61,952 nt of DNA from Oscillospiraceae bacterium (GTDB lineage Bacteria > Bacillota > Clostridia > Oscillospirales > Ruminococcaceae): contig JAIRWC010000020.1 of the NCBI GenBank assembly GCA_031253495.1, forward strand, positions 1 to 61,952, given 5' to 3'. The translations under genes were made by a program, and so were the position numbers. Below are positions 1,000 through 52,855 of this stretch, in pieces (positions within the stretch are counted from its first letter, which is position 1; every line of letters begins with the position of its first letter). The notes under the pieces were generated by a model. It was given only the letters and a program-made list of their open reading frames with translations. It did no database searches and was not told the origin of the DNA.

Positions 1000-3342
1000 A
1001 TGAATCTGTCCGTAAACTGGCTTAACGATTACGTAAACACGCGAAGCGTCCCAATCGCCGAGTTGGCTTCGAGGCTTACCATGTCCGGCTCGAAGGTCGA
1101 GAAGTACGCAAGCCTTTCCGAACCGCTCGAAAAAATCGTAATCGGAAAGGTGCTTGAGGTAAAAAAACACGAAAATTCCGACAGGCTGTGGATTTGCAAG
1201 GTCGACGCCCGGGCTTCCGAACCCGTTCAGATTGTTACGGGGGCGCGAAACGTGTTCGCGGGGGCGTTCGTCCCGGTCGTTCTCGACGGGGGAACCGTGC
1301 TTAACAGGCAAGACGGCTCGGCCGTGAAAATAAAAAAGGGCAAGCTGAGGGGGGAAGTCAGCGACGGGATGTTATGCAGCCTCGACGAACTGGGCTTGGA
1401 TAAAAGCGAGTTCCCTTACGCGGACGCGGACGGCATCCTCGTGTTGAACGGCGACCCCGAGTTCGATAAAGCGGAAATCGGCATGGACGCGCTCGAGTTC
1501 TTCGGTTTGAACGACGCGGTCATGGAGTTCGAGATTACCAACAACCGCCCCGACTGCCTTTCCGTGACGGGGCTGGCGCGGGAGGCGGCGGCGGTTTTCA
1601 ACCTGCCGCTCGACATAAAAGAGCCCGCCTATAAAGGCTTTAAATGCGACATAGAAAAAGAAATCGACGTAATTATCGAAAACAAGCGGCTTTGTTCCCG
1701 CTATATGGCGGGGCTGGCGAAAAACGTCAAAATCGCCCCTTCCCCGAAATGGCTGGCGTCGAGGCTGAAAGCGTCGGGAATCCGCCCGATTAACAACATC
1801 GTGGACATTACCAACTACGTTATGCTGGAATACGGTTATCCCCTGCACGCTTTTGACAGGCGGTTCGTCGAGGGTGGGCAAATCATAATAAGGAGCGCGC
1901 TCCCCGGCGAGAGAATCACGCTCCTCGACGGGAACACGGCAAGCCTTGACAATTCGGTTCTCGTTATCGCCGACAGGATGAAGCCGATTGCCGTGGCGGG
2001 GGTGATGGGCGGGGAATATTCCGGCGTCGTGCCGGACACCGGCACGGTAATATTCGAGGCGGCGTGTTTCGACGGGGTGAGCGTCCGTATGGCGTCGAAA
2101 AAAATCGGCCGCCGCACCGAATCCTCGTCCCGCTTTGAAAAGGGCTTGGACCCCGCGAACGTGAAGACCGCGCTTTTGAGGGCTTTGCAGCTTACGGAGG
2201 AATTAGGCTGCGGCGAGGTTTCGGACACTTTCGTCGATTACGTCAATTTTGAGGAAACGCGGAGGAAAATCCCCCACGATTATAAAGAAATCAACGGGAT
2301 TTTAGGGACGGATATCTCCGAAAGCGAACAGACGGGGATATTCAAAAGGTTGGGGTTCGGTCGTGAAGGCGGCGCGGTCGTCCCGCCGGGGTTCCGTTCG
2401 GATGTTGAGCTGACCTGCGATTTGGCGGAAGAGGTCGCCAGGATTTACGGGTATGACAATATTGAATCCACCCTGCCGCGCCTCGGCAAAAGCGGGGTTA
2501 TAAGCGAATATGAGAAGAATGTCCGTTTCCTCGTAAACGCCTTGACGGCGTCGGGGTGTTACGAGTGCGTAACCTACGGCTTTGCCTCGCCCAAGACAAA
2601 CGAAAGATTTTCGGCGGATTGCGGCGTCGGCGTCAAAATCCGCAACCCTTTCGGCGAGGAAACGGGCGAGATGCGGACGTCGCTTATCCCGTCGATGCTT
2701 AACGTGATAGCGAACAATATCAACGCCCGCAACCCCGGCGCGCGGTTTTTTGAGATAGGGAAAACCTATTCGAAGGACGGCGAAAAGGAAGTCCTTTGCG
2801 TGGGGCTGTACGGGAAAGACGAGAGCTTTTACACGTTGAAGGGCGTTATCGAGGAAATCGCGGATTTGCGTAAAATCGAAGCCGCCGCCGAACCCCCCTT
2901 TCACCCGGGGCGCGCGGCGCGCGGCGATACGGTTCGCTTCGGGGAAATCAGCCCGCTCGTTTTGGAAGAGTTCGGCATAAGCGAACGGGTTTATATGGCC
3001 GAAGCCGACCTTGAGGGGCTTTTCGGCGGCTTTAACCCGCAAAAATACTATAAGCCGATTCCGAGATATCCCGCCGTTACGAGGGATTTGAGCCTTGTCT
3101 GCCCGGACGGGGCCGTTTCGGGGGATATAGTCGCGGTTATCGAGAAAAACGGCGATTTCCTTGAGAGCGTCGAATTTTTCGATGTGTTCAAGGGCGGGAA
3201 TTTGAAAGAGGGCGAGAAAAGCCTTTCTTACAAGCTGGTGTTCAGGAAAAGCGGCGGGACGCTTACGGACGCGGAGGTTGACGGGGCAATCTCGAAAATA
3301 CTTTCAGCCCTGGAAAAAGACGACATAAAGTTAAGGGGATAA
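1000..3342 (+). CDS. pheT: Phenylalanine--tRNA ligase beta subunit
   Basis: Beta chain of phenylalanyl-tRNA synthetase, which binds the tRNA and carries the editing site. At 780 residues it is full length. Visible domains in order: EMAP/OB-like tRNA-binding domain (about 40-150, starting around VIGKVLEVKKHENSDRL), B3/B4 editing domain (about 210-390, with ITNNRPDCLSVTGLAREAA just before), B5 domain (about 400-475), the catalytic-like core, and the C-terminal FDX-ACB anticodon-binding domain (from about 690, YKPIPRYPAVTRDLSLVCP). The ATG is preceded by AAGGAG. It lies 16 bp behind pheS in the same operon. Its stop is directly abutted by the leader cassette of the next gene. Confidence 0.97.
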   Translation: MNLSVNWLNDYVNTRSVPIAELASRLTMSGSKVEKYASLSEPLEKIVIGKVLEVKKHENSDRLWICKVDARASEPVQIVTGARNVFAGAFVPVVLDGGTVLNRQDGSAVKIKKGKLRGEVSDGMLCSLDELGLDKSEFPYADADGILVLNGDPEFDKAEIGMDALEFFGLNDAVMEFEITNNRPDCLSVTGLAREAAAVFNLPLDIKEPAYKGFKCDIEKEIDVIIENKRLCSRYMAGLAKNVKIAPSPKWLASRLKASGIRPINNIVDITNYVMLEYGYPLHAFDRRFVEGGQIIIRSALPGERITLLDGNTASLDNSVLVIADRMKPIAVAGVMGGEYSGVVPDTGTVIFEAACFDGVSVRMASKKIGRRTESSSRFEKGLDPANVKTALLRALQLTEELGCGEVSDTFVDYVNFEETRRKIPHDYKEINGILGTDISESEQTGIFKRLGFGREGGAVVPPGFRSDVELTCDLAEEVARIYGYDNIESTLPRLGKSGVISEYEKNVRFLVNALTASGCYECVTYGFASPKTNERFSADCGVGVKIRNPFGEETGEMRTSLIPSMLNVIANNINARNPGARFFEIGKTYSKDGEKEVLCVGLYGKDESFYTLKGVIEEIADLRKIEAAAEPPFHPGRAARGDTVRFGEISPLVLEEFGISERVYMAEADLEGLFGGFNPQKYYKPIPRYPAVTRDLSLVCPDGAVSGDIVAVIEKNGDFLESVEFFDVFKGGNLKEGEKSLSYKLVFRKSGGTLTDAEVDGAISKILSALEKDDIKLRG

Positions 3343-3343
3343 A

Positions 3344-3426
3344 AGTTTGAAAAATAAGAAAGGACTCCTCGCCATGCCGCAATTTTCATTGAGTTTTGCG
3401 CAGGGTGAGGCGGCATGGTCATAAAA
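3344..3426 (+). repeat. Leader cassette copy 1 (hairpin plus 16-codon ORF)
   Basis: An intergenic element of about 80 bp that reappears without indels on the minus strand at 52773-52855. It begins just after the pheT stop with an A-rich stretch and an AGAAAGGA ribosome binding site, and ends two bases before the ATG of the lipoprotein gene. The arms 3372-3380 and 3410-3418 form a 9-bp perfect stem around a 29-base loop, most of which is identical in both copies. Compared with copy 2, the pair 3374/3416 changes from A-U to G-C, and 3371/3419 from G-U to A-U. The element also contains a short ORF (3374-3424). Whether it acts as RNA, as leader peptide or as a mobile repeat cannot be decided from sequence alone. 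Confidence 0.75.
3374..3424 (+). CDS. Putative 16-residue leader peptide (copy 1)
   Basis: An ATG-started ORF of 16 codons reading [16 protein letters not shown], with AGAAAGGA at a usable distance upstream. The second cassette copy has the equivalent ORF starting GTG and reading [16 protein letters not shown]: two amino-acid changes, one silent third-position change and a start-codon swap that keeps initiation possible. The TAA ends two bases before the ATG of the downstream lipoprotein, so translational coupling is plausible. The ORF overlaps the hairpin stem, so the same substitutions also look compensatory for RNA pairing. I do not recognise the peptide; translation is an inference. Confidence 0.45.
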   Translation: MPQFSLSFAQGEAAWS

Positions 3427-4602
3427 ATGTTAAAGAAAACAATCGCGGTAATTTTATGCGCGGGATTGGCGCTTTTCGCCGCGGCTTGCGCGGACACGTC
3501 CTATTCGATGAAAATCGGCGACAGGAAGATTGCCCCCGGGGTGTTCATCCTTTGCCAGATGGACGCGATAATCGAGGCGAACGCCCTGTTTATCGAAACC
3601 TATCCCGGCGTCGACCCGACGGTAAAAGGCTTCAAATACGAGGATTATGAGCTTGAGGGCGTAAAATTTACGGACTGGGTGAACGACAGGGCGTTGGAAA
3701 TAACCGCCGAACTCCTCGCGATTGAAAAGATGTTCGGCGAACGGGGGCTGACGTTGCCGCCGGAAGAGGAAAGCGCCATAACGGGCGGTATCGAACAAAG
3801 CTGGGACGAAGACGCGGGTCAAACGGACGCGAATTACGCGGGGAAAACCTTGGGCGAGCTTTTCAAAAGCCGCGGCATAGGGAAAGAATCGCTGAAGTTT
3901 TATGAAATAACCAGAGCGAAAAGCAATATGGTCTTGCAGAGCGTTTACGGCGAGGGCGGGACGAACCCCGTTCCCGACGCCGAATGGCAGGCGGTTTGGA
4001 CGAGAGATTACGCGCGGTGCAGGATTATATACGTCGATATTTTGGACGAATTTGAAAACGCCGTTTCGGAAGAGGAGCTGGAAGAATTGGCGGCGAAGGG
4101 CGAAGAGCTTGCCGCCATGCTGGAAGCGGGCGAGAGCTTTAAATCCGTCGAGGACGCCTATTACGATTATCTCGCGGAGAAAGCCGCTTCGGAAGAAGAC
4201 GAAGACGAAGACGACGAAGACGAAGACGAAGACGATACGTACGAAGAAGACGAAGACGAAGACGAAGACGAAGAAGAAGACGAACATTACGGCGAGTATA
4301 TCTTAGACATCGGACAATTCTCCGAGGAAGACGAGCTGTGGGACGTCGTGGAGCATATTTTCTCGATGGGGATTAACAAACCGGAGCTGTATAAAACCGA
4401 GAATATGTATTATGTCATCGAAAGGCTGGATATTCTGGAACGCTCGGATTTGTACGAACGGTACAGGGAAAGCATCGTTTATACCTTGAAGAACGACGAG
4501 TTCATGGAAACGGTTAACGCCGAGGCCAAGGAGATGCTCGCCTCTTCAATCGAAGTGAATCAGGCGGCGGTTAAACGGTACAACCCGAAAAAATTGGCGT
4601 AG
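3427..4602 (+). CDS. Foldase-like (SurA/PrsA-type) lipoprotein with acidic insert
   Basis: A 391-residue predicted lipoprotein. The signal peptide starts MLKKTIAVILCAGLALF and has a lipobox ending in AAC, so it should be membrane-anchored on the outside. I chose 3427 rather than the upstream in-frame ATG at 3415 because that ATG lies in the leader hairpin and is ACG in the second cassette copy. The body resembles SurA_N/parvulin-type foldases in layout: a helical N-terminal part, a segment with helix-rich EELEELAAKGEELAAMLEAG before a weak parvulin-like region, then a C-terminal helix. No convincing parvulin active site is seen. A Glu/Asp tract (about residues 255-288) is encoded by a GAAGAC-type hexamer repeat at about 4191-4288. 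Function as a secretion foldase is inferred. Confidence 0.6.
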   Translation: MLKKTIAVILCAGLALFAAACADTSYSMKIGDRKIAPGVFILCQMDAIIEANALFIETYPGVDPTVKGFKYEDYELEGVKFTDWVNDRALEITAELLAIEKMFGERGLTLPPEEESAITGGIEQSWDEDAGQTDANYAGKTLGELFKSRGIGKESLKFYEITRAKSNMVLQSVYGEGGTNPVPDAEWQAVWTRDYARCRIIYVDILDEFENAVSEEELEELAAKGEELAAMLEAGESFKSVEDAYYDYLAEKAASEEDEDEDDEDEDEDDTYEEDEDEDEDEEEDEHYGEYILDIGQFSEEDELWDVVEHIFSMGINKPELYKTENMYYVIERLDILERSDLYERYRESIVYTLKNDEFMETVNAEAKEMLASSIEVNQAAVKRYNPKKLA

Positions 4603-6766: not shown

Positions 6767-7195
6767 TCATTTAAACGCGATGTAACGCAGGTACGCGTTC
6801 ATATCGAGCGACGACGACGACGACGGGTAACCGAACATCCCGTTCGTCGTAAACCCGCTCGGGGTAATCGTCAGCCGCGCGACGCCCCCGCTTTTGTAGG
6901 GGAAGTTGATAAGCGCGAACGCTATCCCGTTAAAAACGCGGGAATAGTTGAAGCTGTTGGCCGTCGCGTCGCTTGAATCCGAACACATTACGAAAACCGC
7001 GCGGGGCTGCCAACCTAAATCCATCGTCCCGTTCGCGGTCATTATCCCCGTTACGAAATCAATCCTGCCCATAATTTCCGCGAATTTAACCGACATGGTA
7101 TTCTCGATAACCTCAAAGTTCCCGTTATAATCGTCAACGTTATAATAATCGCTTTCTTCCGGTAAATTCAGCCCGTAAACGCTTGTCGTCCTCAT
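6767..7195 (-). CDS. Minimal tail fibre / receptor-binding-like protein
   Basis: A 142-residue protein. Its first 40 residues (NLPEESDYYNVDDYNGNFEVIE) resemble the baseplate-attachment start common in Firmicutes phage tail fibres (LPxxxDyxdVxxxNxnfxxID). The C-terminal 80 residues (from GWQPRAVFVMC) look like a small beta-sandwich tip domain of the kind found at fibre ends. It lacks the long collagen-like or coiled-coil shaft expected of a normal fibre. It starts 4 bp inside the XkdU-like gene. Host-recognition role is inferred from position and N-terminal pattern. Confidence 0.7.
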   Translation of the reverse strand: MRTTSVYGLNLPEESDYYNVDDYNGNFEVIENTMSVKFAEIMGRIDFVTGIMTANGTMDLGWQPRAVFVMCSDSSDATANSFNYSRVFNGIAFALINFPYKSGGVARLTITPSGFTTNGMFGYPSSSSSLDMNAYLRYIAFK

Positions 7196-7737
7196 TGAAA
7201 AATCCCCCTCCTCAAAGTTTCGTGGGTATGGCTTCCCAGTTCCCCGTAACTGTATCCGCCGAAAGAGCCGAAGGCGTTATAAACCAAAACCAAGTCCGCC
7301 GCCATGTTTGCGGGGACGCGCCTTCGCAAAAGCCGCGCCGCGGCGGGGGCGGCGCCGTGAACGGCGGGGTTCAGGCGAGCCGTTACGGTATAACCCGCGC
7401 AGTCCGCGCTTAAGGAATATTCCCGTTTCCCGTTTACGGCGCAAAGCGCGAACAAAGCGCGGTCCAACGATGCGAGCGTATAAGGCGGCCGTTCCGAAAG
7501 CCTTTCCAAAACGTCCGAACGCCGCTCCTCGATTGAACGGGTTCCTTTCGGGGTTATCCCGAAAAGCCGTTCCCAACGGGTTAACCCGTCGCCGTCGGCA
7601 AACGCGGCGAACTGGTCGTCAAGGCGTTTTCCGACGGCGGCGGCGGCCAAAGCGAACTCGCCCTCCTCGGCGCGGGTAATTTTGTCAATCGCCTTGATTT
7701 CCCGCATAAATTCCGGTAAATATTCAACTAACGCCAA
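7192..7737 (-). CDS. XkdU/YmfQ-like baseplate wedge protein (DUF2313)
   Basis: A 181-residue protein matching the YmfQ/XkdU family of contractile-tail baseplates. Visible landmarks are YLPEFMREIKAIDKITRAEEGE at the start, then the family-typical GLTRWERLFGITPKGTRSIEERR and the C-terminal beta-rich part. It overlaps the baseplate J gene by 14 bp and the fibre gene by 4 bp. In PBSX-like clusters it follows XkdT exactly as here. Confidence 0.88.
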   Translation of the reverse strand: MALVEYLPEFMREIKAIDKITRAEEGEFALAAAAVGKRLDDQFAAFADGDGLTRWERLFGITPKGTRSIEERRSDVLERLSERPPYTLASLDRALFALCAVNGKREYSLSADCAGYTVTARLNPAVHGAAPAAARLLRRRVPANMAADLVLVYNAFGSFGGYSYGELGSHTHETLRRGIFQ

Positions 7738-8785
7738 TTATATCCCCCCTTACGGGAATGCCGTCGGAAGGGAGCGTTATGTTCCCCGCCGTTCCGTTGA
7801 GCCGCAAATTCATAATATCCGTAATCCCGCCCGCGTTGAGAAGCCGCGCTTCCGTTTGGCTCAGCCGGACCGTTATGCCGTCGGCGGAATCCCACGCGGC
7901 GGACAGCTCGCGGAAGTAATCGTCCGCCAACTCGTTCAGGTAAGGGAGCGCGTCTTGAAAACTCCAGCCCGCCGCCAAGGTAAAATCGGCGGAAATGTCC
8001 ACCGTAACCGCCGTTACCCCCGCGACGGTTACGGAATGTCCTATGGGGGCCGTCCCTTCGCCCATGCCAGAAAGATGAACGGGGTCGATGAGATTTTGAA
8101 CCTCGTTTATCAAAGCCTCCGACGGCGCGTTCCACTGATGGTTTTGAATAACGAGTTTAACGGTTCCCCCGCCGTTCCAAACGGGATAAACCTTTACGCC
8201 GCCCACGCCCGGCGCCGACAGGGCTTTCCTTCGGTAATCGGCGATATTCCCGCCGTAACTTTGCGTGTCAAGGCTGTCAAAATACCTTTTTCTCAAATGC
8301 TCGGTATCCTCGTCGTCCTTGCCGGGTACCAAAAGCCCCGTAACCGACGCGGCGGAAAGCCCGGCTATATAATCGAGCGGAACGAGGGCGCCCGCCGCGC
8401 GGTCCCCGTCCGAACCCGCGCTTTCGCACACCAGCTTATACTCCCCGTCCGATAATTTTTCCGTTACGCGGTAACGGAAATCGCCGGAAGAAAAACGCGA
8501 GCCTATCGGCACGTTTATGTCGAACTCGCCCCTTATCGCCGCCGGCGCGGCTTCATAAGGCGAAATCCCCCTTTCGGCGGCGCGGCGTATCAGCATTTCC
8601 CGCCCGGCGGTATCGGCGAAGGTTTCGTCCGTTACCGTATCAAGCTCGGCGTAAAGTATCGCCAGCTCCATGGCGGCGGGCGCGAGAGAATCATAGATTA
8701 TGCCGCCCTCGCGCTTGTCCGTGCCGTCGGGGATTCTATCCAGCATCCTTTGTAAAATAAAAGGGAACGTCATATTTTCATACAC
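7724..8785 (-). CDS. Baseplate J-like protein (XkdT-like)
   Basis: A 353-residue baseplate J family protein (P2 gpJ / XkdT-like), a wedge component of contractile tails. Typical segments are RIPDGTDKREGGIIYDSLAP near the N terminus, GTRFxxGDF-like IGSRFSSGDFRYRVTE, and LRKRYFDSLDTQSYGGN in the central domain. Length is normal for the family. It overlaps XkdS-like and XkdU-like genes on either side, so the wedge proteins are probably translated together. Confidence 0.93.
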   Translation of the reverse strand: MYENMTFPFILQRMLDRIPDGTDKREGGIIYDSLAPAAMELAILYAELDTVTDETFADTAGREMLIRRAAERGISPYEAAPAAIRGEFDINVPIGSRFSSGDFRYRVTEKLSDGEYKLVCESAGSDGDRAAGALVPLDYIAGLSAASVTGLLVPGKDDEDTEHLRKRYFDSLDTQSYGGNIADYRRKALSAPGVGGVKVYPVWNGGGTVKLVIQNHQWNAPSEALINEVQNLIDPVHLSGMGEGTAPIGHSVTVAGVTAVTVDISADFTLAAGWSFQDALPYLNELADDYFRELSAAWDSADGITVRLSQTEARLLNAGGITDIMNLRLNGTAGNITLPSDGIPVRGDIIGVS

Positions 8786-9188
8786 TGACGGTTACCTCCT
8801 TTTCCGCGTTTAATTCGCCGTATACCGTGCCGACGGTGAAAACGGCGCGGATTTTGTTTTTGACGACGGTAAAATCATAATCGAAGACCCCCGTAACCCT
8901 TTCGTCCGCCGAAAGCGCTTCGGCAATCCGCCTTTCCAGCTCGACGCCCGCGTAATCGCAGTCGCGCCCGTATAAATCCGAAAGTTCCACGCCGTAATCG
9001 CTTGAATAAACGGGATAGCGGTACCTTTCGGTTTTGAGAATTTTATAAACGGCTTGCGAAACCGCCTCAAGCCCGTCCGTAAACCCCTCTATATCCCCCA
9101 AATCCGCGAGCAGCCTGTACGTTTTGGAAGGTTTATCCGCGTGTTCCCCCGTCTTGTCAACGACGCCGTAAGCCTTTTCGGGCAACAC
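8778..9188 (-). CDS. XkdS-like baseplate protein (DUF2634, gp25-like)
   Basis: A 136-residue protein of the DUF2634/XkdS group, related in fold to the T4 gp25/GPW baseplate wedge. Key stretch: ILKTERYRYPVYSSDYGVELSDLYG followed by ERRIAEALSADERVTGV, which matches the gp25 core. It shares its first base region with the end of the DUF2577 gene and overlaps baseplate J by 8 bp. Confidence 0.88.
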   Translation of the reverse strand: MLPEKAYGVVDKTGEHADKPSKTYRLLADLGDIEGFTDGLEAVSQAVYKILKTERYRYPVYSSDYGVELSDLYGRDCDYAGVELERRIAEALSADERVTGVFDYDFTVVKNKIRAVFTVGTVYGELNAEKEVTVSV

Positions 9189-9433
9189 TAAACCACCCCC
9201 AAAACGATAAATCTCTGCCCGCCCTGCTCTCTCAGCAAAACCGCGGCGTCCCCGGCGGAAAACCCCGCGCCTTTCATCGCGACCAGCCGTTCGCCGGATA
9301 ATTTCAGCTTCTGTCCGACGTCAATCACAAGCGGGGCAAGCCCCGTTACGGTCCCGAACATGACGGCGGCCGGCTTTTCCGCCTCAAACGCCTCGACGGC
9401 GGCTTTTTTTATTAAAGAAGCGACGTCATACAT
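9188..9433 (-). CDS. XkdR-like protein (DUF2577)
   Basis: An 81-residue protein of the DUF2577/XkdR type. It has the small OB-like pattern MFGTVTGLAPLVIDVGQKLKL, with C-terminal QGGQRFIVLGVV. Such proteins sit between the hub (XkdQ) and gp25-like gene in PBSX-type tails and probably belong to the baseplate hub or spike. ATG at 9433; it overlaps the hub gene by 8 bp. Confidence 0.82.
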   Translation of the reverse strand: MYDVASLIKKAAVEAFEAEKPAAVMFGTVTGLAPLVIDVGQKLKLSGERLVAMKGAGFSAGDAAVLLREQGGQRFIVLGVV

Positions 9434-10370
9434 AAAACATCTCCAATTCCAAATCCATAAAGTGCCCCCTCCCCGACAGTTTGTGAACGCATTTCCTCAC
9501 GCGCGCGGTTTCGTCGAACCCGCGAACGCGAACCGTTACCGACGAGCCCCCGCGAACGCCCGCGTCGCCGAGCGCGTTTTCGATATAAAGCGTTTGCTCC
9601 GTTCTGTCGCGCAGCGCGAGAATGGAACGCGCCTTTTCGCCGCCGTTTTCACCGTCGCCGATTTTCGCGTAATATTGCAAAACGCCGAGGCTTTCCACGC
9701 TTTTTTCGTTTTCGGCGACGAATATTTCCCGTTTGCCCGTTTTTTTGTCCGCGCGGAAGAGCTTTACGCGGTTGAACCGGTTGTCCGCGGACGAAAAACA
9801 GCGGAAATCCGCCGCCGAGCAGTCGTCGACCACAACCCGCGAAAACATTTCCGCCTCGCTTTTGAGCGACAGCTTCCCGAAGTCGTCAAACAGCGCGTAA
9901 CGCTTCCCTTTATGCTCTTTTTCGAGGTCCAGCGCGTTTTCGATAATATCAAGGAGCGTCGCGTTATCCTCGACGCGCGACGGGATGACGTATTCGGTTT
10001 CGCTTATCTCGCCCGTTCGCAAAAGATAATCGCCCGCTATCATTTTTACGACGTCGCTCGCTTTCTTGCCGCCATAGACGTAGGTGTCCCTGTTTTTTAA
10101 ATATCGGAGCTGGTCGTACGCCGTCAGGGAAACGACGCCGTCGCCGTATGTTTTTTTTGAAAAGACAATCCCGAAAAACAGCCCGGTTCCGTTTGCCTTC
10201 AACCCGACGGAATCGCCCTCGCGTATTTCAAAGTCTTCGCCGGCCCCCCCGCCGACCGCGCCGAACGAAAGTTTTCCGCACCTGCCGCGATAAAAGCTCT
10301 CGCATAAAACGTCCCCCCGCGTTAAGGGCGAGAAAACGCGCCTTTTATTATCAACCGACAATTCAAACAT
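9426..10370 (-). CDS. XkdQ/gpD-like tail hub protein
   Basis: A 314-residue protein of the XkdQ family, structurally akin to phage P2 gpD / T4 gp27, which forms the hub ring between tail tube and spike. The pattern of short beta strands and the segment VVSLTAYDQLRYLKNRDTYV followed by ASDVVKMIAGDY is characteristic. It ends in the beta-rich C terminus ending ELEMFYV. It is 27 bp downstream of the LysM tail gene. Length is close to the family norm of 310-330. Confidence 0.88.
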   Translation of the reverse strand: MFELSVDNKRRVFSPLTRGDVLCESFYRGRCGKLSFGAVGGGAGEDFEIREGDSVGLKANGTGLFFGIVFSKKTYGDGVVSLTAYDQLRYLKNRDTYVYGGKKASDVVKMIAGDYLLRTGEISETEYVIPSRVEDNATLLDIIENALDLEKEHKGKRYALFDDFGKLSLKSEAEMFSRVVVDDCSAADFRCFSSADNRFNRVKLFRADKKTGKREIFVAENEKSVESLGVLQYYAKIGDGENGGEKARSILALRDRTEQTLYIENALGDAGVRGGSSVTVRVRGFDETARVRKCVHKLSGRGHFMDLELEMFYV

Positions 10371-10397
10371 AAAACTCTCCCTCCGGCGGTTCGCCGG

Positions 10398-11078
10398 TCA
10401 ATCCGGCAGGTTAAAAACCTGACCGGCGTAAATGGTGTGGACGGGGTTCCCCGTGCCTTTGTTTCCCGCGTCGATAATACTTTTGTTAAGGTTATAAATT
10501 TCTTTGTAGCGCGCCCCGTCGCCCAGAAACCTCTGCGCTATCATCCAAAGGCAATCGCCTTTAACGACGGTATGGGTTTTCGCGGCGGGGGCGGAATCCG
10601 TCGGGCGTACGGTTCGCCCGAACCGAACGTCCCGCGTTGGGGCGCTTATTTTTTTCACCGAAAAATCGCGGTATTCGGTCAAGGTTATATCCGCGAAAAT
10701 GTCGAAGCCCTCCCCCGCGTCCTCCCTCGCGCGGATTTCCGAAAAAAGCGCTTTTATGTTTGTGGAAAAAAGTTTTTTTCCGTTTGCGTTCTTTCGCAAA
10801 ACGATAAAGCGGAAAGGCTTTTCGCTTTCTTTCAGCTTTATAATTTCATCGAAAATCGCGCTCCCTTTTTTAAATCCGTCCGTATAAACCGCGAAGGGAT
10901 ACCGCGTTTGCGGCAGCAGCGCGGAAAACTTGATTTCCGACAGCGCCCGCCCGCCTAAAACGGCAATTTCTTCCCCCGAAAGCAGGTCGAATTTTTTTAA
11001 TTTATTGCCGCGGCTGATTTCAAGGCGGGCGGGCGCGACGGGCAGCAAAACCTCGCCTAAATAAAAAGCGTAACTCAT
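10398..11078 (-). CDS. XkdP-like LysM-domain tail protein
   Basis: A 226-residue protein. The N-terminal about 150 residues (YLGEVLLPVAPARLEISRGN, then LGGRALSEIKFSALLP) match the XkdP-type tail protein, and the C-terminal LysM domain (about 168-226, HTVVKGDCLWMIAQRFLGDG) should bind peptidoglycan or serve as a baseplate-joint module. Its ATG overlaps the stop of the mini tape-measure gene (ATGA), so expression is coupled. Position directly after the tape measure matches PBSX. Confidence 0.9.
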   Translation of the reverse strand: MSYAFYLGEVLLPVAPARLEISRGNKLKKFDLLSGEEIAVLGGRALSEIKFSALLPQTRYPFAVYTDGFKKGSAIFDEIIKLKESEKPFRFIVLRKNANGKKLFSTNIKALFSEIRAREDAGEGFDIFADITLTEYRDFSVKKISAPTRDVRFGRTVRPTDSAPAAKTHTVVKGDCLWMIAQRFLGDGARYKEIYNLNKSIIDAGNKGTGNPVHTIYAGQVFNLPD

Positions 11079-11512
11079 ATATGAATCCCCTCCGCCGCCG
11101 AAGCTACCGCTTCGGCCAATTTTTCGCCGAACGCCGTCATAACCGCGTCAATATCCGCGCTTGAGCTTATTTTGTTATAAGCGTTGAAATTCACGGTCAA
11201 CCCGGAAACGCCGCCGTAATTTTGCGTCGTTTCCCTTGAATTGCGCGTTTCGCTCCGCGAGTTGTCCGTTATCCGCGTGTCGTCAAAAAACCGCGAACCG
11301 TCGATTTTTGTCCGCGAATAATCAAAGACCCGCGAATTATCAACCGACGACCGCCCGTTGTCGACCGTTAAATATTCGCCGGCTTCCGTCAGCGATTTGT
11401 CGATTTCGAGGAAAATATCGCCCGTCGAGAAATTAAAGTTGTTCGCCGCGTTTTCGACGGTCGTCCGTTCGTTTTCAAGCAGGCGTTCGTATTCGTCGAG
11501 AAAATCCGTCAC
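11075..11512 (-). CDS. Severely shortened tape-measure-like protein
   Basis: A 145-residue protein in the position where contractile phages encode a tape measure of about 600-1500 residues. GTG start at 11512 overlaps the stop of the -1 frame of the chaperone gene (GTGA), with AAAGGAG upstream. Residues 1-50 are acidic helical. Residues about 50-95 hold degenerate 6-8-residue repeats of D-N/Y/G-S-R (VDNSR, DYSR, IDGSR, TDNSR). The C terminus (LTVNFNAYNKISSSADIDA then FGEKLAEAV) resembles the conserved tail end of XkdO-like tape measures. The hydrophobic, coiled-coil and transglycosylase middle is absent. Either a miniature tape measure or an internal-deletion relic that is still open. Confidence 0.65.
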   Translation of the reverse strand: MTDFLDEYERLLENERTTVENAANNFNFSTGDIFLEIDKSLTEAGEYLTVDNGRSSVDNSRVFDYSRTKIDGSRFFDDTRITDNSRSETRNSRETTQNYGGVSGLTVNFNAYNKISSSADIDAVMTAFGEKLAEAVASAAEGIHI

Positions 11513-11658
11513 GGCGTTTCTCCTTTCATTAAAATCGAAGCTATGATGAAAGCTTTTTCGTTCTTTTCCAACCGTGAAAATTCCGACGGCAGGATATTGA
11601 ACCTGTGCAGACAGTAATGGGCGGCTTTAGCCTCAAAGCCGCCCGTTATGAGTTTTTT
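11509..11658 (-). other. Programmed -1 frameshift site and extension ORF of the tail chaperone
   Basis: At 11652-11658 the minus strand reads A AAA AAC in the correct zero-frame phase, a canonical slippery heptamer. Seven bases later comes a perfect 10-bp stem with a 6-base loop (arms 11635-11644 and 11619-11628); the zero-frame TAA (11646-11648) lies in the spacer. The -1 frame then stays open to TGA at 11509-11511, adding about 46 residues (GGFEAKAAHYCLHRF and onward) to give a fusion of 185 residues. This is the G/G-T arrangement of tail assembly chaperones seen in lambda and in many contractile phages. Confidence 0.92.
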
Positions 11659-12065
11659 GCGTTTTCTATCCTTTCGCTTAACGAAACGTCCGTTTCGCCG
11701 AACTTCTGAACAAACCTCACGAACGCCTGATACTCGGCGGGTTCGTCGAGCATCTCGCGGATTAACTCCTCGGGCGTGTTCGCGCCGTAAGAGTTTTGCA
11801 GCTCCGCGTTATACAAATTGGGATAAACGACCGAAGCCGCCGCGAGCTTCGCCATATAACGGTTTACGTCCAAACGGAACCTCCCCGCTTCGTCGTCGAA
11901 CCGCGTGCAGGCGTCGCGGAATTCCTCGTCCTCACGCGTCGTAACCGCCCGTATTTCCCACAAAAGCGGCTTCCCGCCCCCGTCTTTCAGCGACTTCGCC
12001 GCCGCGAAAAAGGCGTTTTCTTTTTTCGCTTTGTTTTCTTTTAAAAACAGTGATAACTCGCCCAT
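11646..12065 (-). CDS. XkdN-like tail assembly chaperone (short form)
   Basis: A 139-residue protein equivalent to XkdN/lambda gpG. It is acidic and helical, starts MGELSLFLKENKAKKENAFF and carries the family-like segment LWEIRAVTTREDEEFRDAC. It would coat the tape measure while tail tube subunits assemble. A slippery site near its 3' end gives a second, longer product (see the frameshift feature). The ATG is preceded by AAAAGGAG. It follows the tube gene by 12 bp, the standard order. Confidence 0.88.
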   Translation of the reverse strand: MGELSLFLKENKAKKENAFFAAAKSLKDGGGKPLLWEIRAVTTREDEEFRDACTRFDDEAGRFRLDVNRYMAKLAAASVVYPNLYNAELQNSYGANTPEELIREMLDEPAEYQAFVRFVQKFGETDVSLSERIENAKNS

Positions 12066-12077
12066 AACCGCTCCTTT

Positions 12078-12551
12078 TTACATACCCGATAATTTTTTGA
12101 ATTTTTGCGGCATTTTGAAATCCTCGAAAGTGAACTCCAGCTTTTCGTCGAGGTATTCGCCGTCGGCGTCGAACTTGGCTAAAATCCCCCCGTCGATGTT
12201 GCAGTCGACGAACACGACCGTCTGCCGCCCCGCCGAAGACGCGGGGTCTTCGTTCGTAACTTGTATCTCAAAATAAATATCCTCGCCGGTGTTTTTGTAT
12301 TTCAGCATCATCTCCCTGAACACGGAAGAGTTATAATGAAACGTCGCCTTCCCCGCGCCTCTCCAGCCGGTCGATTTATTCCCCGCCCCGGTCTTTCCGA
12401 GAATGGGGATTTTCGTTTTCGTCCGCTCAAACTTCGCCTCGAAATTTATCGCCTGCATAAAATTATAGCGGTTTCCGTCAACGGTAACGAAACACTCCGC
12501 CAGCTTCGCGGAAATCGCGTCCTTACCGCGCATGACAATGTTTTTGTTCAC
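12078..12551 (-). CDS. Contractile tail tube protein (XkdM-like)
   Basis: A 157-residue tail tube protein of the XkdM/DUF2001 family. Matches include SAKLAECFVTVDGNRYNFMQ, the TGWRGAGKATFHYNSSVFREM segment and the near-C-terminal LEFTFEDFKMPQKF. I place the start at the GTG at 12551 (GTG AAC AAA AAC), which has AAAGGAG seven bases upstream; the frame is open further to 12587 but that would bury the ribosome site in the coding region. It lies directly after the sheath gene. Confidence 0.92.
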   Translation of the reverse strand: MNKNIVMRGKDAISAKLAECFVTVDGNRYNFMQAINFEAKFERTKTKIPILGKTGAGNKSTGWRGAGKATFHYNSSVFREMMLKYKNTGEDIYFEIQVTNEDPASSAGRQTVVFVDCNIDGGILAKFDADGEYLDEKLEFTFEDFKMPQKFKKLSGM

Positions 12552-12593
12552 GCCGCGCTCCTTTCCGATAAAAACGGTCCCCGTCAAGGGCCG

Positions 12594-13898
12594 CTAACAT
12601 ATCACGCAGGTCATATATACCTGCGCCATCGCGTTTACCACGTTAATCTTGTCCTTTACCGTAACCGCGCGCTTGCCGTCCCCTTGAAGCACCTCGACGT
12701 CCCCGTCGGAAAAATCCTCGATTGCGCGGATTCTCGCCAGTTCCTCGTGGAGCTTTACTATATCGGCCCACAGGCTTATACGCCCGCTTTCGTCGTTGGG
12801 AACGTTTCCCAAATACTTCGTGTTGAACAGCGCGGCCGTATCCCCCGCAATCCGGTCAATCACGCGAACGGTCTGGTTGTCCTTGAAAGCCTCGCCCTTA
12901 CCGTCGAAAACCGTAACGAGCGAATTTATATCCGCCAGCACCCTCAAAGAGTTTCCCACCTTGTGCAGGGTAAATTCCCCCGCTTTGATGGCGTTTTCAA
13001 GCTCCTTTTGGGTATAGTCGGCGAAAATTTCAAATTCCCCGTCGTAAGCCTTGTTCAAATTGGATTTGTTCACCTCGCATCCCGCGATTATTCCCGTAAC
13101 CCAATAAACCAGCGACGCCGCGCTCTCCCCGGCGTCAAGGACGGGGTTCTTCACGTTTACGACCCCCTCGTGGTCGGCGGCGCAGTTGAACGCGACGCAT
13201 TGCAGCTTAACGCCCGTTTTATCGCGCGTCGTCCCCGCGTAAGCGGCGAACAGCGCGTTCACGGCGGGGTTTTCCGAAACGGCGCCGACGGCGTTCACGG
13301 AATAATTCCCGATTTTTTCCAAAAACGCCTGATAGTCCGAAACGTCGGCCTCGCCGTTTTCCCCGCCGTGAAAAGGCGTCCCCGCCGTAAGGGCGAGAAC
13401 GGCTTCCTTATCCCAAACGATGAAATCGTTGTCCGTCAATTCGGCGGCGGAAGAAACCGTCTGCGAAAATACCTCTTTTCCGCCGAGGAACGCCTTAACG
13501 TCGAACAAGTCGGGTTCCTCCGCGTTTTCTCCGATTATAACGCGCAAATCGTTGCCCCGCGCGCCCGCGCGCCTTGCCTCGGCATAATCGCACCGGCTTT
13601 TCGCGCCCCTGCCGAGCCTGTAAGCGTGGAGCGTCCCGGCGTTGCGGAAAAGGTCGCGCAACCCTTTCAGCTTCCCGTCCGAATAATTGTAGCCGAACAA
13701 AGACAGCGACCTTTCCGTAAAATCCTCGTTCGTAACCGTGAAAACCTCGCCCTCGACGCCCCAGTCCAATTCCAGCGCGAAAGCCGCCGTCCCCCTTTCG
13801 GAAGGCGGCGCGCCCGCTTTCGCGAGCGACACGAAATTGACATAAGCGCCCGGCAGCGTCTTACTCTGCCCTAAAAAAACCCCTCCGCCTAACGCCAT
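12594..13898 (-). CDS. Contractile tail sheath protein (XkdK-like)
   Basis: A 434-residue sheath protein. It starts MALGGGVFLGQSKTLPGAYV, the standard opening of Firmicutes sheath proteins. It has the Ig-like insertion region in the middle and the conserved C-terminal domain (INSLVTVFDGKGEAFKDNQ, then VRVIDRIAGDTAALFNTKYL, and an end part with ADIVKLHEELARIRAIEDF) by which subunits link. Full length and intact, so the tail is of the contractile, R-type-pyocin-like class. It overlaps the upstream tail-completion gene by 10 bp. Confidence 0.95.
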   Translation of the reverse strand: MALGGGVFLGQSKTLPGAYVNFVSLAKAGAPPSERGTAAFALELDWGVEGEVFTVTNEDFTERSLSLFGYNYSDGKLKGLRDLFRNAGTLHAYRLGRGAKSRCDYAEARRAGARGNDLRVIIGENAEEPDLFDVKAFLGGKEVFSQTVSSAAELTDNDFIVWDKEAVLALTAGTPFHGGENGEADVSDYQAFLEKIGNYSVNAVGAVSENPAVNALFAAYAGTTRDKTGVKLQCVAFNCAADHEGVVNVKNPVLDAGESAASLVYWVTGIIAGCEVNKSNLNKAYDGEFEIFADYTQKELENAIKAGEFTLHKVGNSLRVLADINSLVTVFDGKGEAFKDNQTVRVIDRIAGDTAALFNTKYLGNVPNDESGRISLWADIVKLHEELARIRAIEDFSDGDVEVLQGDGKRAVTVKDKINVVNAMAQVYMTCVIC

Positions 13899-14344
13899 AT
13901 AAATTCCTCCTCAACCGTGATTTTTTCCATAACGTCCTTTTCCTCCCCCAGATAAACAAACGCGTCGTAATTCACGAAAAAATTCAGCATATCCTCCGCG
14001 TATTCCCCCTGCATACCCCGTCCGCGCAGCGTGCCGCCCATAAAGGGTATATACTCAAGGCACAAAAACAACCTGTCCAGCACCTCGCCGCACTCCCCGC
14101 GAACGTCGTCGGCGGCGGGGAAAAACTCGACGCACAGCCCGACCCTTTTCAAATACCTGTTGCCCAATAACTGCCTGCTTATGAAATACCGGTCTTTCAC
14201 GCTCCCGCTCTTCGGGTTTTTGCAGGCGACAAAAAAGCAGGGCTTTACCGCCCCTTGAACGGCTTTCTCGGTATAAACGGGGAAAGCGTCCCCGAACTCT
14301 TCCGACAAAGCCCCGCACACGCCGGAAATGACTTCGTTTATCAT
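13889..14344 (-). CDS. Tail terminator-like protein (DUF6838/XkdJ-like)
   Basis: A 151-residue protein that fits the phage tail terminator family found just before the sheath gene in PBSX-like clusters. It starts MINEVISGVCGALSEEFG, then VKPCFFVACKNPKSG, and ends LNFFVNYDAFVYLGEEKD. Such proteins cap the tail or join it to the head. It overlaps the upstream small gene by 4 bp and the sheath by 10 bp. Confidence 0.8.
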   Translation of the reverse strand: MINEVISGVCGALSEEFGDAFPVYTEKAVQGAVKPCFFVACKNPKSGSVKDRYFISRQLLGNRYLKRVGLCVEFFPAADDVRGECGEVLDRLFLCLEYIPFMGGTLRGRGMQGEYAEDMLNFFVNYDAFVYLGEEKDVMEKITVEEEFIWR

Positions 14345-14688
14345 AAAATTTCCTCCGATAATTCAAGGGATATCTCTTGATGCGAGGAATAAACGGCGGG
14401 AGGCGAACTGTTTTTATAGGCCGTGTTAGTATTTTTTCGCCTCACCACAATCACGCTTCCCGCCTTTACGGGGTATTCCGCCCCGAGGAACAGCTTGACC
14501 TCCTGCCGCGCCTCGGTTAAAGAACCCCTTTCCTTTCCCGCCCTCCCCCCGGAGTACGAAACGCGGCAGGGCAGGTCGCAAAAAACCCGCTCCCGCCGCA
14601 GTCCCGCGCTCCCGTCCTCTTTCCGGAACGTCTTTCTTTCATACACGTCGCAAAAATCGTTCCACAGAACCGCCAAATGTCCTTTCAC
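14341..14688 (-). CDS. Head-tail joining minor protein (XkdI/XkdH position)
   Basis: A 115-residue protein. I chose the GTG at 14688, which overlaps the stop of the previous gene (GTGA) and has GGGAGG about ten bases upstream; the frame is open further but only into the preceding coding region. An alternative GTG lies one codon upstream. Visible: LWNDFCDVYERKTF, then RVFCDLPCRVSY and FLGAEYPVKAGSVIVV, resembling minor capsid or head-closure proteins of Firmicutes phages. Assignment rests largely on gene order. Confidence 0.68.
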   Translation of the reverse strand: MKGHLAVLWNDFCDVYERKTFRKEDGSAGLRRERVFCDLPCRVSYSGGRAGKERGSLTEARQEVKLFLGAEYPVKAGSVIVVRRKNTNTAYKNSSPPAVYSSHQEISLELSEEIL

Positions 14689-15059
14689 CACGACAGCCTC
14701 CCGTAACGCCCGGGCTTGTTCATCCCTTTCAAAAACCGTATAACCTCGTCCAGCGGCGCCGCCTCGTCGCGGAACGTAACGCTCGTGTCCCCCTCCGAAA
14801 CGCTCTTGACCGCTCCCAAATCCGGAACGAACCCGTCGAGCCGGCAAAGGCTTTTCTTAATGGCTAAAAACTCGCCGGCGGCACCCGCGGCGACACCTTT
14901 TACCCTTTCCTCGGGCAAGGCTTTCATTCCGCTCGCCGCCAAAAAACCGTTTTTTGCCTCCTCGCAGCACAGCGCGAGGATTTCCGCGTCGCGCCTCGCC
15001 ATGCGATACCCCAGCGCCTTTAAAATCCCCCGCGCCCCTTTTAAAATCCTTTCAGACAT
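14685..15059 (-). CDS. Head-tail connector-like protein
   Basis: A 124-residue protein starting MSERILKGARGILKALGYRM at 15059 with a good GGGAGG. Upstream in-frame codons are rejected because they run through a hairpin. It is helical with a small beta C terminus (SVTFRDEAAPLDEVIRFLKG), compatible with the gp6-like head-tail connector group that follows the major capsid gene. It is the first gene of the tail module after the toxin-antitoxin insertion. Function is inferred from position. Confidence 0.65.
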   Translation of the reverse strand: MSERILKGARGILKALGYRMARRDAEILALCCEEAKNGFLAASGMKALPEERVKGVAAGAAGEFLAIKKSLCRLDGFVPDLGAVKSVSEGDTSVTFRDEAAPLDEVIRFLKGMNKPGRYGRLSW

Positions 15060-15076
15060 AAAAACCTCCCGATAAA

Positions 15077-15108
15077 GCCGCCCTCCCCCGTATTCGGGGA
15101 AGGGCGGC
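15077..15108 (-). terminator. Hairpin in front of the head-tail connector gene
   Basis: A near-perfect 14-bp stem (one C-A mismatch) with a 4-base loop, between the connector gene and the toxin-antitoxin promoter. Its arms are almost identical to the strong terminator at 5369-5401, but the minus-strand U tract is weak (CTTTATC). It may be an attenuator in the leader of the tail module, or the relic of a terminator brought in with the toxin-antitoxin segment. Confidence 0.5.
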
Positions 15109-15170
15109 GGTCGTTTTGCCGTCGTTACTGTTTCGTTTGCACCGCTACTGCGAAAAAATCGCAAAAAATG

Positions 15171-15199
15171 TTGACATTGTGTTGAATTTGCGGTATACT
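15171..15199 (+). promoter_or_regulatory. Promoter of the DinJ/YafQ module
   Basis: TTGACA at 15171-15176, 17-base spacer, TATACT at 15194-15199. It reads into the antitoxin gene with the ATG 12 bases beyond the -10 box. This gives the module its own transcription opposite to the surrounding phage genes. Confidence 0.8.
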
Positions 15200-15211
15200 T
15201 GCCATGAGGTG

Positions 15212-15502
15212 ATGAAAGTGGCGAACACGACATACAATATCCGCATTGACAAAAACACAAAGGAACAGGCGGACGCTTTATACCGAAGCATGGGTCTGAC
15301 TTTATCCGGCGCAATCAACCTTTTTCTCACACAATCGATTATTCAAGGCAAATTGCCCCTTGGCGAAGTTGTTTCAAGCCCCGCCTACGCCGACGCGCTT
15401 TTGCGCGACGCCGCGAAAACGGATAAGGCGATAGCCGCCGGTGGCGCGAAAACATACGCCTCACCCGAGGAACTGTTCGCGGAGTGGAGACGCGGCGGCT
15501 GA
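15212..15502 (+). CDS. RelB/DinJ family antitoxin
   Basis: A 96-residue antitoxin with the ribbon-helix-helix N terminus typical of DinJ/RelB: TTYNIRIDKNTKEQADAL followed by GLTLSGAINLFLTQSI. It should dimerise, bind the operator at its own promoter, and neutralise the downstream toxin through its C-terminal helix (SPEELFAEWRRGG). Start at ATG 15212 is supported by the promoter 12 bases upstream; a GTG at 15218 with better ribosome-site spacing is the alternative. Its TGA overlaps the toxin ATG. Confidence 0.92.
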   Translation: MKVANTTYNIRIDKNTKEQADALYRSMGLTLSGAINLFLTQSIIQGKLPLGEVVSSPAYADALLRDAAKTDKAIAAGGAKTYASPEELFAEWRRGG

Positions 15503-15786
15503 TGAGCGGTTACAAATACAAACTGATTGAAACGTCGCTGTTTAAAAAAACCAGAAAACTCGCGAAAAAGCGGGGCTTTGATTTGTCCCTTTTGGAAGAG
15601 CCGATTACGTTGTTGGCAAAAGGCGAACGGCTTCCCCCAAAGTACCGCGACCACCGATTAAAAGGGGAATTATCGGCGTTTAGGGAATGTCATATCAAAG
15701 GCGACTGGTTTTTGGTATATCGCGTGCTTGAAGACAGGCTGATTTTGTCGCTTCATGCCACCGGATCCCATTCCGATATTTTTTGA
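15502..15786 (+). CDS. YafQ family mRNA interferase toxin
   Basis: A 94-residue RelE-superfamily toxin of the YafQ type, which cuts mRNA at the ribosome. The catalytic signature is complete: the H in YRDHRLKGEL, FRECHIKGDWFLVYRV and the C-terminal ATGSHSDIF, matching the His/Asp/His/Phe set of YafQ. Its start overlaps the antitoxin stop, giving tight coupling. It converges on the major capsid gene with only 18 bp between the two stops, so it sits snugly in the phage cluster. Confidence 0.93.
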   Translation: MSGYKYKLIETSLFKKTRKLAKKRGFDLSLLEEPITLLAKGERLPPKYRDHRLKGELSAFRECHIKGDWFLVYRVLEDRLILSLHATGSHSDIF

Positions 15787-15804
15787 TTCGCGGTTTCAAA
15801 CCGC

Positions 15805-51749: not shown

Positions 51750-51780
51750 GGCGGCGGTCATAACGACCGCCGCCTTTTTT
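51750..51780. terminator. Hairpin at the end of the GH130 gene
   Basis: A perfect 10-bp stem (51750-51759 with 51765-51774) and 5-base loop. It is followed on the plus strand by six T residues that run into the GH130 stop codon. On the minus strand, where GH130 is transcribed, there is no U tract, so its direction is puzzling; it probably ends GH130 without a U run or blocks antisense transcription. Confidence 0.6.
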
Positions 51781-52772
51781 CACGAATGTTCCTTCACGTA
51801 TTCGACCAGCTCGTCCGCGTTCGCGAACGCCAGCCCCACATGGGTGTCGGCGCACCCGTAATAAATCGCCAGCCTGCCCGTGTCGGGGTCGCAAAGCGCG
51901 GCGCAGGGGAACGCGACGTTCGGGACGTCGCCCGTACATTCGTAAATAGTCTGCGGGCTTAACAGGTATTCTTGGCAACGGTACTTGACCTTCCACGGCT
52001 CGTCAATGTCGAGGACGGCCGCCCCGAAGCTGTAGACAAACCCGTTGCAGGATTCCAAAACGCCGTGATAGATACAAAGCCAGCCCTCGCTCGTTTCAAT
52101 CGGTATGGGCCCCGCGCCGATTTTCTTCGACTCCCAGCCGTTCTTCGGCGCCATGACGTGGCGGTGTTCCCCCCAATATTTCATGTCTGGCGATTGCGAA
52201 ATGTAAATGTCCCCAAACGGCGTGTGCCCCGAGTCCGACGGGCGGCTGAACATCACGTATTTCCCGTTGATTTTCCGAGGGAACAGCACCCCGTTTCGGT
52301 TGAACGGCAAAAAGGCGTTCTCGCACTGGCGGAATTCCTTGAAATCGAAGGTGTAGCCCACGCCTATCGTCGGTTTCCACCCGTAAGCGTTGCACCACGT
52401 TACCCACCAGCGGTCCTCAATGAACACCACCCGCGGGTCATAGCCGTACTGCCACGGGTTCGCCTCGGCGGTTTTCGCGTCGTCGTTGAGCCAGTCTATG
52501 CGCTCCTCCGATAGCTCCCAGTTAATCGCGTCGTCTGAAAACCCGACGTGCAACTGCATATTCCTCCGCTTGTCGTCAACGCGAAACACCCCCGCGAATT
52601 TTTCCCCGAAAGGCACCACCGCGCTGTTGAAAATCGAGTTGCCGCACTTCAGTTGGTCGCGCTTTATAATGGGGTTCCCCGAATACCGCCGCACGACCTC
52701 GTTACAGCCCGCGGGCTTTTCCTCCCACGGAATGTTCGGCAGGGAGTTTAAGCCGATTATCTTCACGCTCAT
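51780..52772 (-). CDS. GH130 family beta-mannoside phosphorylase-like enzyme
   Basis: A 330-residue glycoside phosphorylase of family GH130, which splits beta-mannosides with phosphate to give mannose 1-phosphate. Landmarks: [38 protein letters not shown], the catalytic aspartate region [20 protein letters not shown] and [20 protein letters not shown]. Cytoplasmic, no signal peptide. The start is two bases after the end of the leader cassette copy 2. It lies downstream of a small membrane gene and two lipoprotein genes, and near a phosphohexomutase that could process its product. Confidence 0.9.
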
Positions 52773-52855
52773 GTTTATGACCGTGCCGCTTCACCCTGCG
52801 CAAAACTCAATGAAAATCGCGGCACGGTGATTCGTCCTTTCTTATTTTTCAAACT
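52773..52855 (-). repeat. Leader cassette copy 2 (hairpin plus 16-codon ORF)
   Basis: Second copy of the 3344-3426 element, same length, on the opposite strand. It begins inside the last codons of the small membrane gene (the TGA stop is part of the shared sequence) and ends two bases before the GH130 ATG. Stem arms differ from copy 1 at paired positions, so pairing is kept; most of the loop is identical. Confidence 0.75.
52775..52825 (-). CDS. Putative 16-residue leader peptide (copy 2)
   Basis: GTG-started ORF reading [16 protein letters not shown], equivalent to the ATG-started ORF at 3374-3424. AGAAAGGA lies upstream at the same distance. The TAA is two bases before the GH130 start. Translation is inferred from conservation only. 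Confidence 0.45.

Follow-up and report, generated by a model that had tools for sequence, protein, structure and literature searches.

Dispersed cassettes between the Shine-Dalgarno sequence and the start codon of unrelated genes in Oscillospiraceae genomes

Results

Two copies of a short cassette lie in front of unrelated genes

The DNA studied here (the window) is a stretch of 61,952 nucleotides from an Oscillospiraceae bacterium (contig JAIRWC010000020.1). It contains two segments of about 83 bases, at 3344-3426 of the plus strand and at 52773-52855 of the minus strand, that align without gaps, as an inspection of the letters alone (the sequence-only reading) had claimed. They are 90% identical. 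The core of the loop described below was found twice in the window and not at all in 100 shuffled versions of it. Each segment, here called a type A cassette, consists of the left end AGTTTGAAAAATAAG, the Shine-Dalgarno-like sequence AAGAAAGGA, a 9-bp stem with a 29-base loop and the right end GGTCATAAAN, which is followed by the ATG of a gene. The features of the two loci are:

3333..3339, plus strand: host Shine-Dalgarno-like AAGGGGA upstream of copy 1, overlapping the end of a PheT-like gene (sequence)
3344..3426, plus strand: cassette copy 1, type A, between the host Shine-Dalgarno sequence and the ATG at 3427 (sequence, BLASTN, covariance model)
3347..3424, plus strand: leader frame of copy 1, opened by TTG, with 25 codons and then a TAA two bases upstream of the gene's ATG (sequence, frame statistics)
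3356..3364, plus strand: copy 1's own Shine-Dalgarno-like AAGAAAGGA (sequence; conserved in alignment A1)
3372..3418, plus strand: hairpin of copy 1, arms 3372-3380 and 3410-3418, 29-base loop (covariation; single-sequence fold)
3374-3424, plus strand: 16-codon ORF of copy 1, ATG start, inside the longer leader frame (sequence)
3427..4602, plus strand: downstream gene 1, a secreted protein or lipoprotein by eye (ORF list)
51780..52772, minus strand: downstream gene 2, a GH130 phosphorylase (PF04041, E 4.9e-68)
52773..52855, minus strand: cassette copy 2, type A, before the ATG at 52772 (sequence, BLASTN, covariance model)
52775..52852, minus strand: leader frame of copy 2, opened by TTG and closed by a TAA two bases upstream of the gene's ATG (sequence)
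52825-52775, minus strand: 16-codon ORF of copy 2, GTG start (sequence)
52781..52827, minus strand: hairpin of copy 2, arms 52827-52819 and 52789-52781, with an A-U to G-C change relative to copy 1 (sequence; covariation)
52835..52843, minus strand: copy 2's own Shine-Dalgarno-like AAGAAAGGA (sequence)

The sequence-only reading had placed the end of the cassette two bases before the ATG of the downstream gene. This was wrong: the segment reaches the base adjoining the ATG (3427 and 52772), and it is the stop codon of the 16-codon ORF that ends two bases before it. Copy 2 itself provides the stop codon of a short upstream reading frame (GTT TGA), and gene 1 has a further in-frame ATG at 3415, within the stem. 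The proposed GH130 identity of gene 2 was upheld by the Pfam search; gene 1, labeled a foldase-like lipoprotein, had no Pfam match at E ≤ 0.001. Elsewhere in the window, a run of minus-strand genes (7192-16839) resembles by eye phage-tail or contractile-injection genes and includes a LysM-like protein (10398-11078).

Copies are numerous and end at start codons

The window's own genome (G000; 1.67 Mb, 45 contigs) contains 24 near-full copies with 84-100% identity, and a few short partial matches, as judged by BLASTN. The query was the cassette segment without the ATG, so that the count of start codons is not built into the search. An ATG follows at one of two fixed offsets in 23 of these 24 copies (the exception is L021); 20 start contexts resemble CATAAAN-ATG and three read CAT-ATG (L003, L009, L015). 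A covariance model built from 32 copies, whose last three positions are the ATG, found matches (E ≤ 0.01) in ten of 71 genomes of the same genus: 28 copies in G000, 31 in G006, 13 in G064, eight in G016, three in G065, one each in G062, G063, G066 and G081, and at least 63 in G019, where all 63 scored candidates matched. When 400 kb were sampled regardless of copies, 16 matches in G019 and 12 in G006 were obtained at the same threshold, which extrapolates to about 100 and 54 copies per genome, respectively. Among the model-found copies, an ORF start lies beside the right end in 27 of 28 cases in G000 and in 126 of 135 cases in the ten genomes, figures that are partly circular since the model ends in ATG. 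The nine copies without an ORF start by the criterion used include tandem copies, one copy in front of a terminator-like hairpin (L047), and two (L170 and L176) in which the ATG lies one base beyond the scanned interval.

Type A copies immediately precede the ATG of genes that are unrelated to one another, and their distance from it hardly varies. The genome-wide search proposed in the sequence-only reading revealed neither a pair of copies standing alone nor copies scattered without relation to start codons. One of the two explanations offered there, a spreading hairpin repeat that provides translation starts, comes close to the data: copies are many, nearly all of them end at start codons, and the stem covaries. 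The location between Shine-Dalgarno sequence and ATG, the leader frame beginning at TTG and the existence of related types had all been missed, because only two copies were visible in the window.

Insertion between host Shine-Dalgarno sequence and start codon

The rpsI gene of G000, which starts with GGGAGGTTCACA-cassette-TATG, had a match in 63 other genomes, and the loci of 29 of these were fetched and read by eye. The cassette was absent from all 29, nearly all of which displayed a plain arrangement of Shine-Dalgarno sequence, spacer and ATG (for instance GGAGGGATAACAATG). We also used a joined query of 15 gene starts, which yielded 13 usable orthologs in G081 (one further weak match was dropped); 12 of them lack the cassette, and the upstream flanks of several (L011, L023, L015) align closely between the two genomes up to the insertion point. 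The thirteenth, xseB, has a diverged cassette in G000 and G081 alike, at matching positions, and the element was therefore inherited there; its left end also supplies the last codons and the stop codon of the upstream gene. Since the relatives, where orthologs were read, mostly have an ordinary Shine-Dalgarno sequence, spacer and ATG with nothing in between, the cassette is an insert at this point.

In line with this position, a host Shine-Dalgarno sequence was found at an aligned spacing of 2-12 bases before the left end in 17 of 24 G000 copies, compared with 73 of 480 control positions; the same test, a simple match to a consensus complement of the 16S tail, recognized 22 of 33 native starts in the window, which were picked by hand. 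By this simple match, seven of the 24 copies have no host Shine-Dalgarno sequence.

The stem covaries across many copies

In an alignment fitted to the model (A3), 32 two-sided pair changes were counted, compared with 8.8 in shuffles and 6-15 in slid controls. A plain MAFFT alignment that had not been fitted (A1) contained five two-sided cells, compared with 1.0 in shuffles and none in slid controls. The claim that paired stem bases change together, originally made for the two window copies, therefore extends to many copies, and we regard the covariation as real but as moderate evidence, for most stem positions hardly vary at all. Single copies folded only moderately better than their shuffled counterparts (z -2.54 and -1.41), and for copy 2 the fold of minimum energy is not the proposed one. 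Single-copy folding is unremarkable, and the support for the stem comes from the comparison of many copies.

Reading frames within the cassette

The 16-codon ORF singled out by the sequence-only reading does not behave as a conserved peptide. It is intact in 16 of 24 G000 copies; three of the others have an in-frame TAG, two lack a start codon and three lack the terminal stop, and the differences are not concentrated, by eye, at third codon positions. In most G000 copies, a longer leader frame starts at the left-end TTG and closes with a TAA that lies two bases upstream of the gene; three G000 copies have an early in-frame TAG.

We assessed this leader frame in 84 copies that have an exact left end and belong to several types, a set of non-independent copies that includes a few probably false pairings (e.g., L257, L308). 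It was open in 61 copies, compared with 43.8 when the interiors were shuffled, whereas the +1 frame was open in one (1.0 expected) and the +2 frame in 17 (19.5 expected). This contrast between frames is partly built in, because the left end itself has stop codons in the other frames; when the first 15 bases were ignored, the three frames were open in 66, 47 and 37 copies. The excess of open leader frames is found in G006 (21 of 26 vs. 13.2), G016 (7 of 8 vs. 3.1) and G064 (7 of 9 vs. 3.6), and is small in G000 (12 of 15 vs. 10.9) and G019 (9 of 16 vs. 7.6). In the model-found set, the three frames were open in 70, 14 and 37 of 122 copies.

The genes behind the cassettes are unrelated and unlikely to form a regulon

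The genes that bear a cassette in G000 are unrelated and include dnaN, ruvA, rpsI, rplF, accD and hpt. NCBIfam models, applied to ten downstream proteins, assigned DnaN, RuvA, S9, AccD, hypoxanthine phosphoribosyltransferase and L6 above their cut-offs; the other four (HisC-like, SigE-like, HinT-like and deaminase-like) scored below. Among 122 downstream proteins from the ten genomes, ten pairs were similar at E ≤ 1e-10, and five of these reached at least 50% identity.

These data bear on the other explanation offered by the sequence-only reading, a cis-acting leader, and on the wider idea that a structured RNA or a leader peptide controls the downstream genes as a regulon. A fixed position, a conserved stem, a short ORF and a Shine-Dalgarno sequence of its own are what such a cis-acting leader might exhibit; yet the genes that follow are unrelated and mostly unshared between genomes, copies sit inside ordinary operons (e.g., before rplF), most of the orthologs that were read lack the cassette, and Rfam produced no match at the gathering score in the eight loci scanned. 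Regulation of a defined set of genes is therefore improbable.

Cassettes of other types share the ends

At start sites in G006, G064, G016 and G014 we found other bodies, with the left end GTTTGAA and the right end GG-N-ATGGTCATAA-NN-ATG; the ends common to the various bodies are GTTTGAA on the left and ATGGTCATAANN-ATG on the right. These bodies include a 29-codon frame in G016 and a 32-codon frame with a TTCG hairpin in G064; in G006 a loop insertion of about 55 bases keeps the frame in most copies, and in a body from other genomes the frame runs into the gene (L313, L330). Several cassettes stand in tandem arrays of 72-77 bases or are nested, with a new copy attached where an older one has its right end (L004, L041, L302, L284). 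Such arrays, with periods of about 72-77 bases and several of them directly before a start codon, were seen in L125 (G019:C30:1-298) and in L272, L274, L276 and L284 (G006).

The signature GAAAGG-N-ATGGTCATAA-NN-ATG was present with at most one mismatch in 26 of 71 genomes of the genus, and exactly in 23 genomes (22 genera) of the 295 sampled across the order; 11 IMG/VR contigs also contained it. A reversed-pattern control gave no match in the 71 or the 295 genomes. G000 and G019 lack the signature, because the right end of their type A cassettes has no GAAAGG. GTTTGAA was recognized as the left end in two of the 11 viral contigs and, among 19 order-level loci that were read, in one (L376), with a diverged version in another (L386). 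Since most of the loci read outside the genus have no recognizable left end, the 22-base right-end signature may be a start-site motif of its own there, and the extension of the family beyond the genus is tentative. For type A itself, carriage by viruses was dismissed (five IMG/VR matches, without flanks), as was a fixed set in other taxa (22 stretches, 13 from two termite-gut Oscillospiraceae MAGs and nine without flanks).

Several further arrangements were noted at these ends. A second small repeat, with the ends AACCTGTATTCAG and CAGGTTCTAA, is apparently inserted at the same TAA of the cassette left end in two species (L028, G000 contig C45 near position 161; L051, G006). A lone left end, AGGTTGAAAAATAAGAAAG, is followed by a different long perfect hairpin (L026, G000 C2:17489), and in L034 (G020 C6:147986) the left end AGTTTGAAAAATAAGAAAGGACGAA continues directly into GCATAAAATG with no hairpin, either as a deletion derivative or as a simpler leader. 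In four contigs of G048 (C6, C10, C11 and C12, positions 95-119), about 95 bases separate the contig start from the 22-base right-end signature, as if a longer identical repeat broke the assembly there. A recurring stretch resembling TGTAGTGTGCCTG, together with TTTGTGCCTT, occurs upstream of the GAAAGG right end in bacterial and viral contigs (L309, L324, L358, L359, L366, L371, L383) and is possibly the end of a larger element.

Probable mobility and proposed maintenance of translation

Copies are dispersed, and they were inserted at start sites. We consider it likely that the segment belongs to a family of small mobile elements that are compatible with translation and whose copies occupy translation start sites. 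The cassette would restore translation, and such inserts would be tolerated for that reason. Directed by the host Shine-Dalgarno sequence, translation of a short leader frame would begin at the left end (TTG AAA ...) and stop about two bases before the gene's ATG, and the cassette would contribute a Shine-Dalgarno sequence of its own, which is AAGAAAGGA in front of the hairpin in type A and, in other types, GAAAGG at the right end. This sequence and the hairpin could then bring a ribosome to the ATG, either by reinitiation or through a split ribosome-binding site.

The second of these routes competes with the preferred reading at this one step only: the 9-bp hairpin would fold out the insert and bring AAGAAAGGA to within about 13 bases of the ATG, the leader ORF being incidental. 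It agrees with the distances (AAGAAAGGA about six bases before the stem, the ATG seven to eight after it), with a stem that in G019 is kept, and covaries, while the loop varies in length, with the finding that open leader frames are not in excess in either G000 or G019, and with a precedent in phage T4 genes 25 and 38 (PMC3014915). Against it, several other bodies place GAAAGG beside the ATG at their right end and need no hairpin for the spacing, the loop of type A, at 29 bases, is large, and copy 2 prefers a different fold. We give this route somewhat less than an even chance.

As to the mode of spread, MITE or REP-like repeats are present in many bacterial genomes, and the cassette shares with them its small size (about 83 bp), copy number (24 near-full copies in G000), palindromic character, nesting and lack of a transposase gene. 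If it were an ordinary repeat of this kind that inserts anywhere, and were seen at starts only because other insertions had been lost, other intergenic sites should be tolerated as well, yet 23 of 24 BLASTN copies in G000 keep the same distance to a start codon. Nor were the usual marks of such repeats encountered. No terminal inverted repeats were found, the inverted repeat of the stem starting about 28 bases inside the left end, and a shared 6-mer or longer between the flanks in six of 24 copies is not beyond chance (shuffled mean 3.65); a candidate target duplication of 8 bases at the rplF copy was likewise discarded as within the range of shuffles. A Y1 transposase (PF01797) had no match in G000, while control genomes were positive. 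An ordinary repeat of this kind is therefore very improbable.

Reverse transcriptase (PF00078) was absent from G000, G006 and G019 and present once each in G064 and G016. We accordingly rejected both enzymes as general mobilizer, and the reverse transcriptase that a group II intron derivative would draw on was not available throughout. In the scanned parts of four genomes, no long element with both cassette ends was recognized.

A much broader view is conceivable, though we rather doubt it: the cassettes could represent a start-site-specific mobile class with diverse bodies, shared ends (GTTTGAA and ATGGTCATAANN-ATG), a leader and a ribosome-binding signal that keep the gene on, and tandem stacking. 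Its spread, across one bacterial order and the phages of that order, would rely on a mechanism by which the ribosome-binding site itself is read, perhaps in the mRNA.

Discussion

If the preferred reading is true, some bacterial repeats can live in compact genomes because they insert at sites where the gene stays translated, thanks to an open leader frame or a hairpin, a translational counterpart of self-splicing. The specificity for start sites raises the question of what recognizes a start codon. Annotation is affected as well: these genomes could contain hundreds of misplaced gene starts, because an in-frame ATG 12 bases upstream lies within the element. Reinitiation and split ribosome-binding sites could also be studied in the cassettes as in replicate experiments provided by nature.

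A search of the open-licence PMC literature found no description of these elements, and four known systems resemble them in part. Rickettsia palindromic elements are short mobile palindromes that carry an ORF and have inserted into unrelated genes in a translation-compatible manner (PMC10969869), all of which recalls the cassettes; they lie in frame inside coding sequences, whereas the cassettes lie between Shine-Dalgarno sequence and start codon (upstream of the start codon in 23 of 24 G000 copies) and usually end their own frame before the gene. The TAACTGA heptamer repeats of Beggiatoaceae are likewise multi-copy and located directly upstream of the starts of unrelated, even ribosomal-protein, genes, the largest class ending 1 nt upstream of the start, and that paper sees no evident mechanism (PMC4679880). 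Unlike the cassettes, they are seven-base tandem repeats without a hairpin, a Shine-Dalgarno sequence of their own or a leader frame.

In phage T4 genes 25 and 38, a hairpin between the Shine-Dalgarno sequence and the AUG shortens the effective spacing (PMC3014915), and a hairpin, here a covarying one, lies between the same two elements in the cassettes. The T4 sites are single gene leaders with a shorter spacing and are not described there as dispersed elements. Finally, the enterobacterial RU/ERIC-type sequences are MITE-like repeats of about 100-170 bp found to carry ORFs (PMC2759123) and in this respect resemble the cassettes; by the description available in that source they are intergenic and intragenic, and it mentions no position at start codons.
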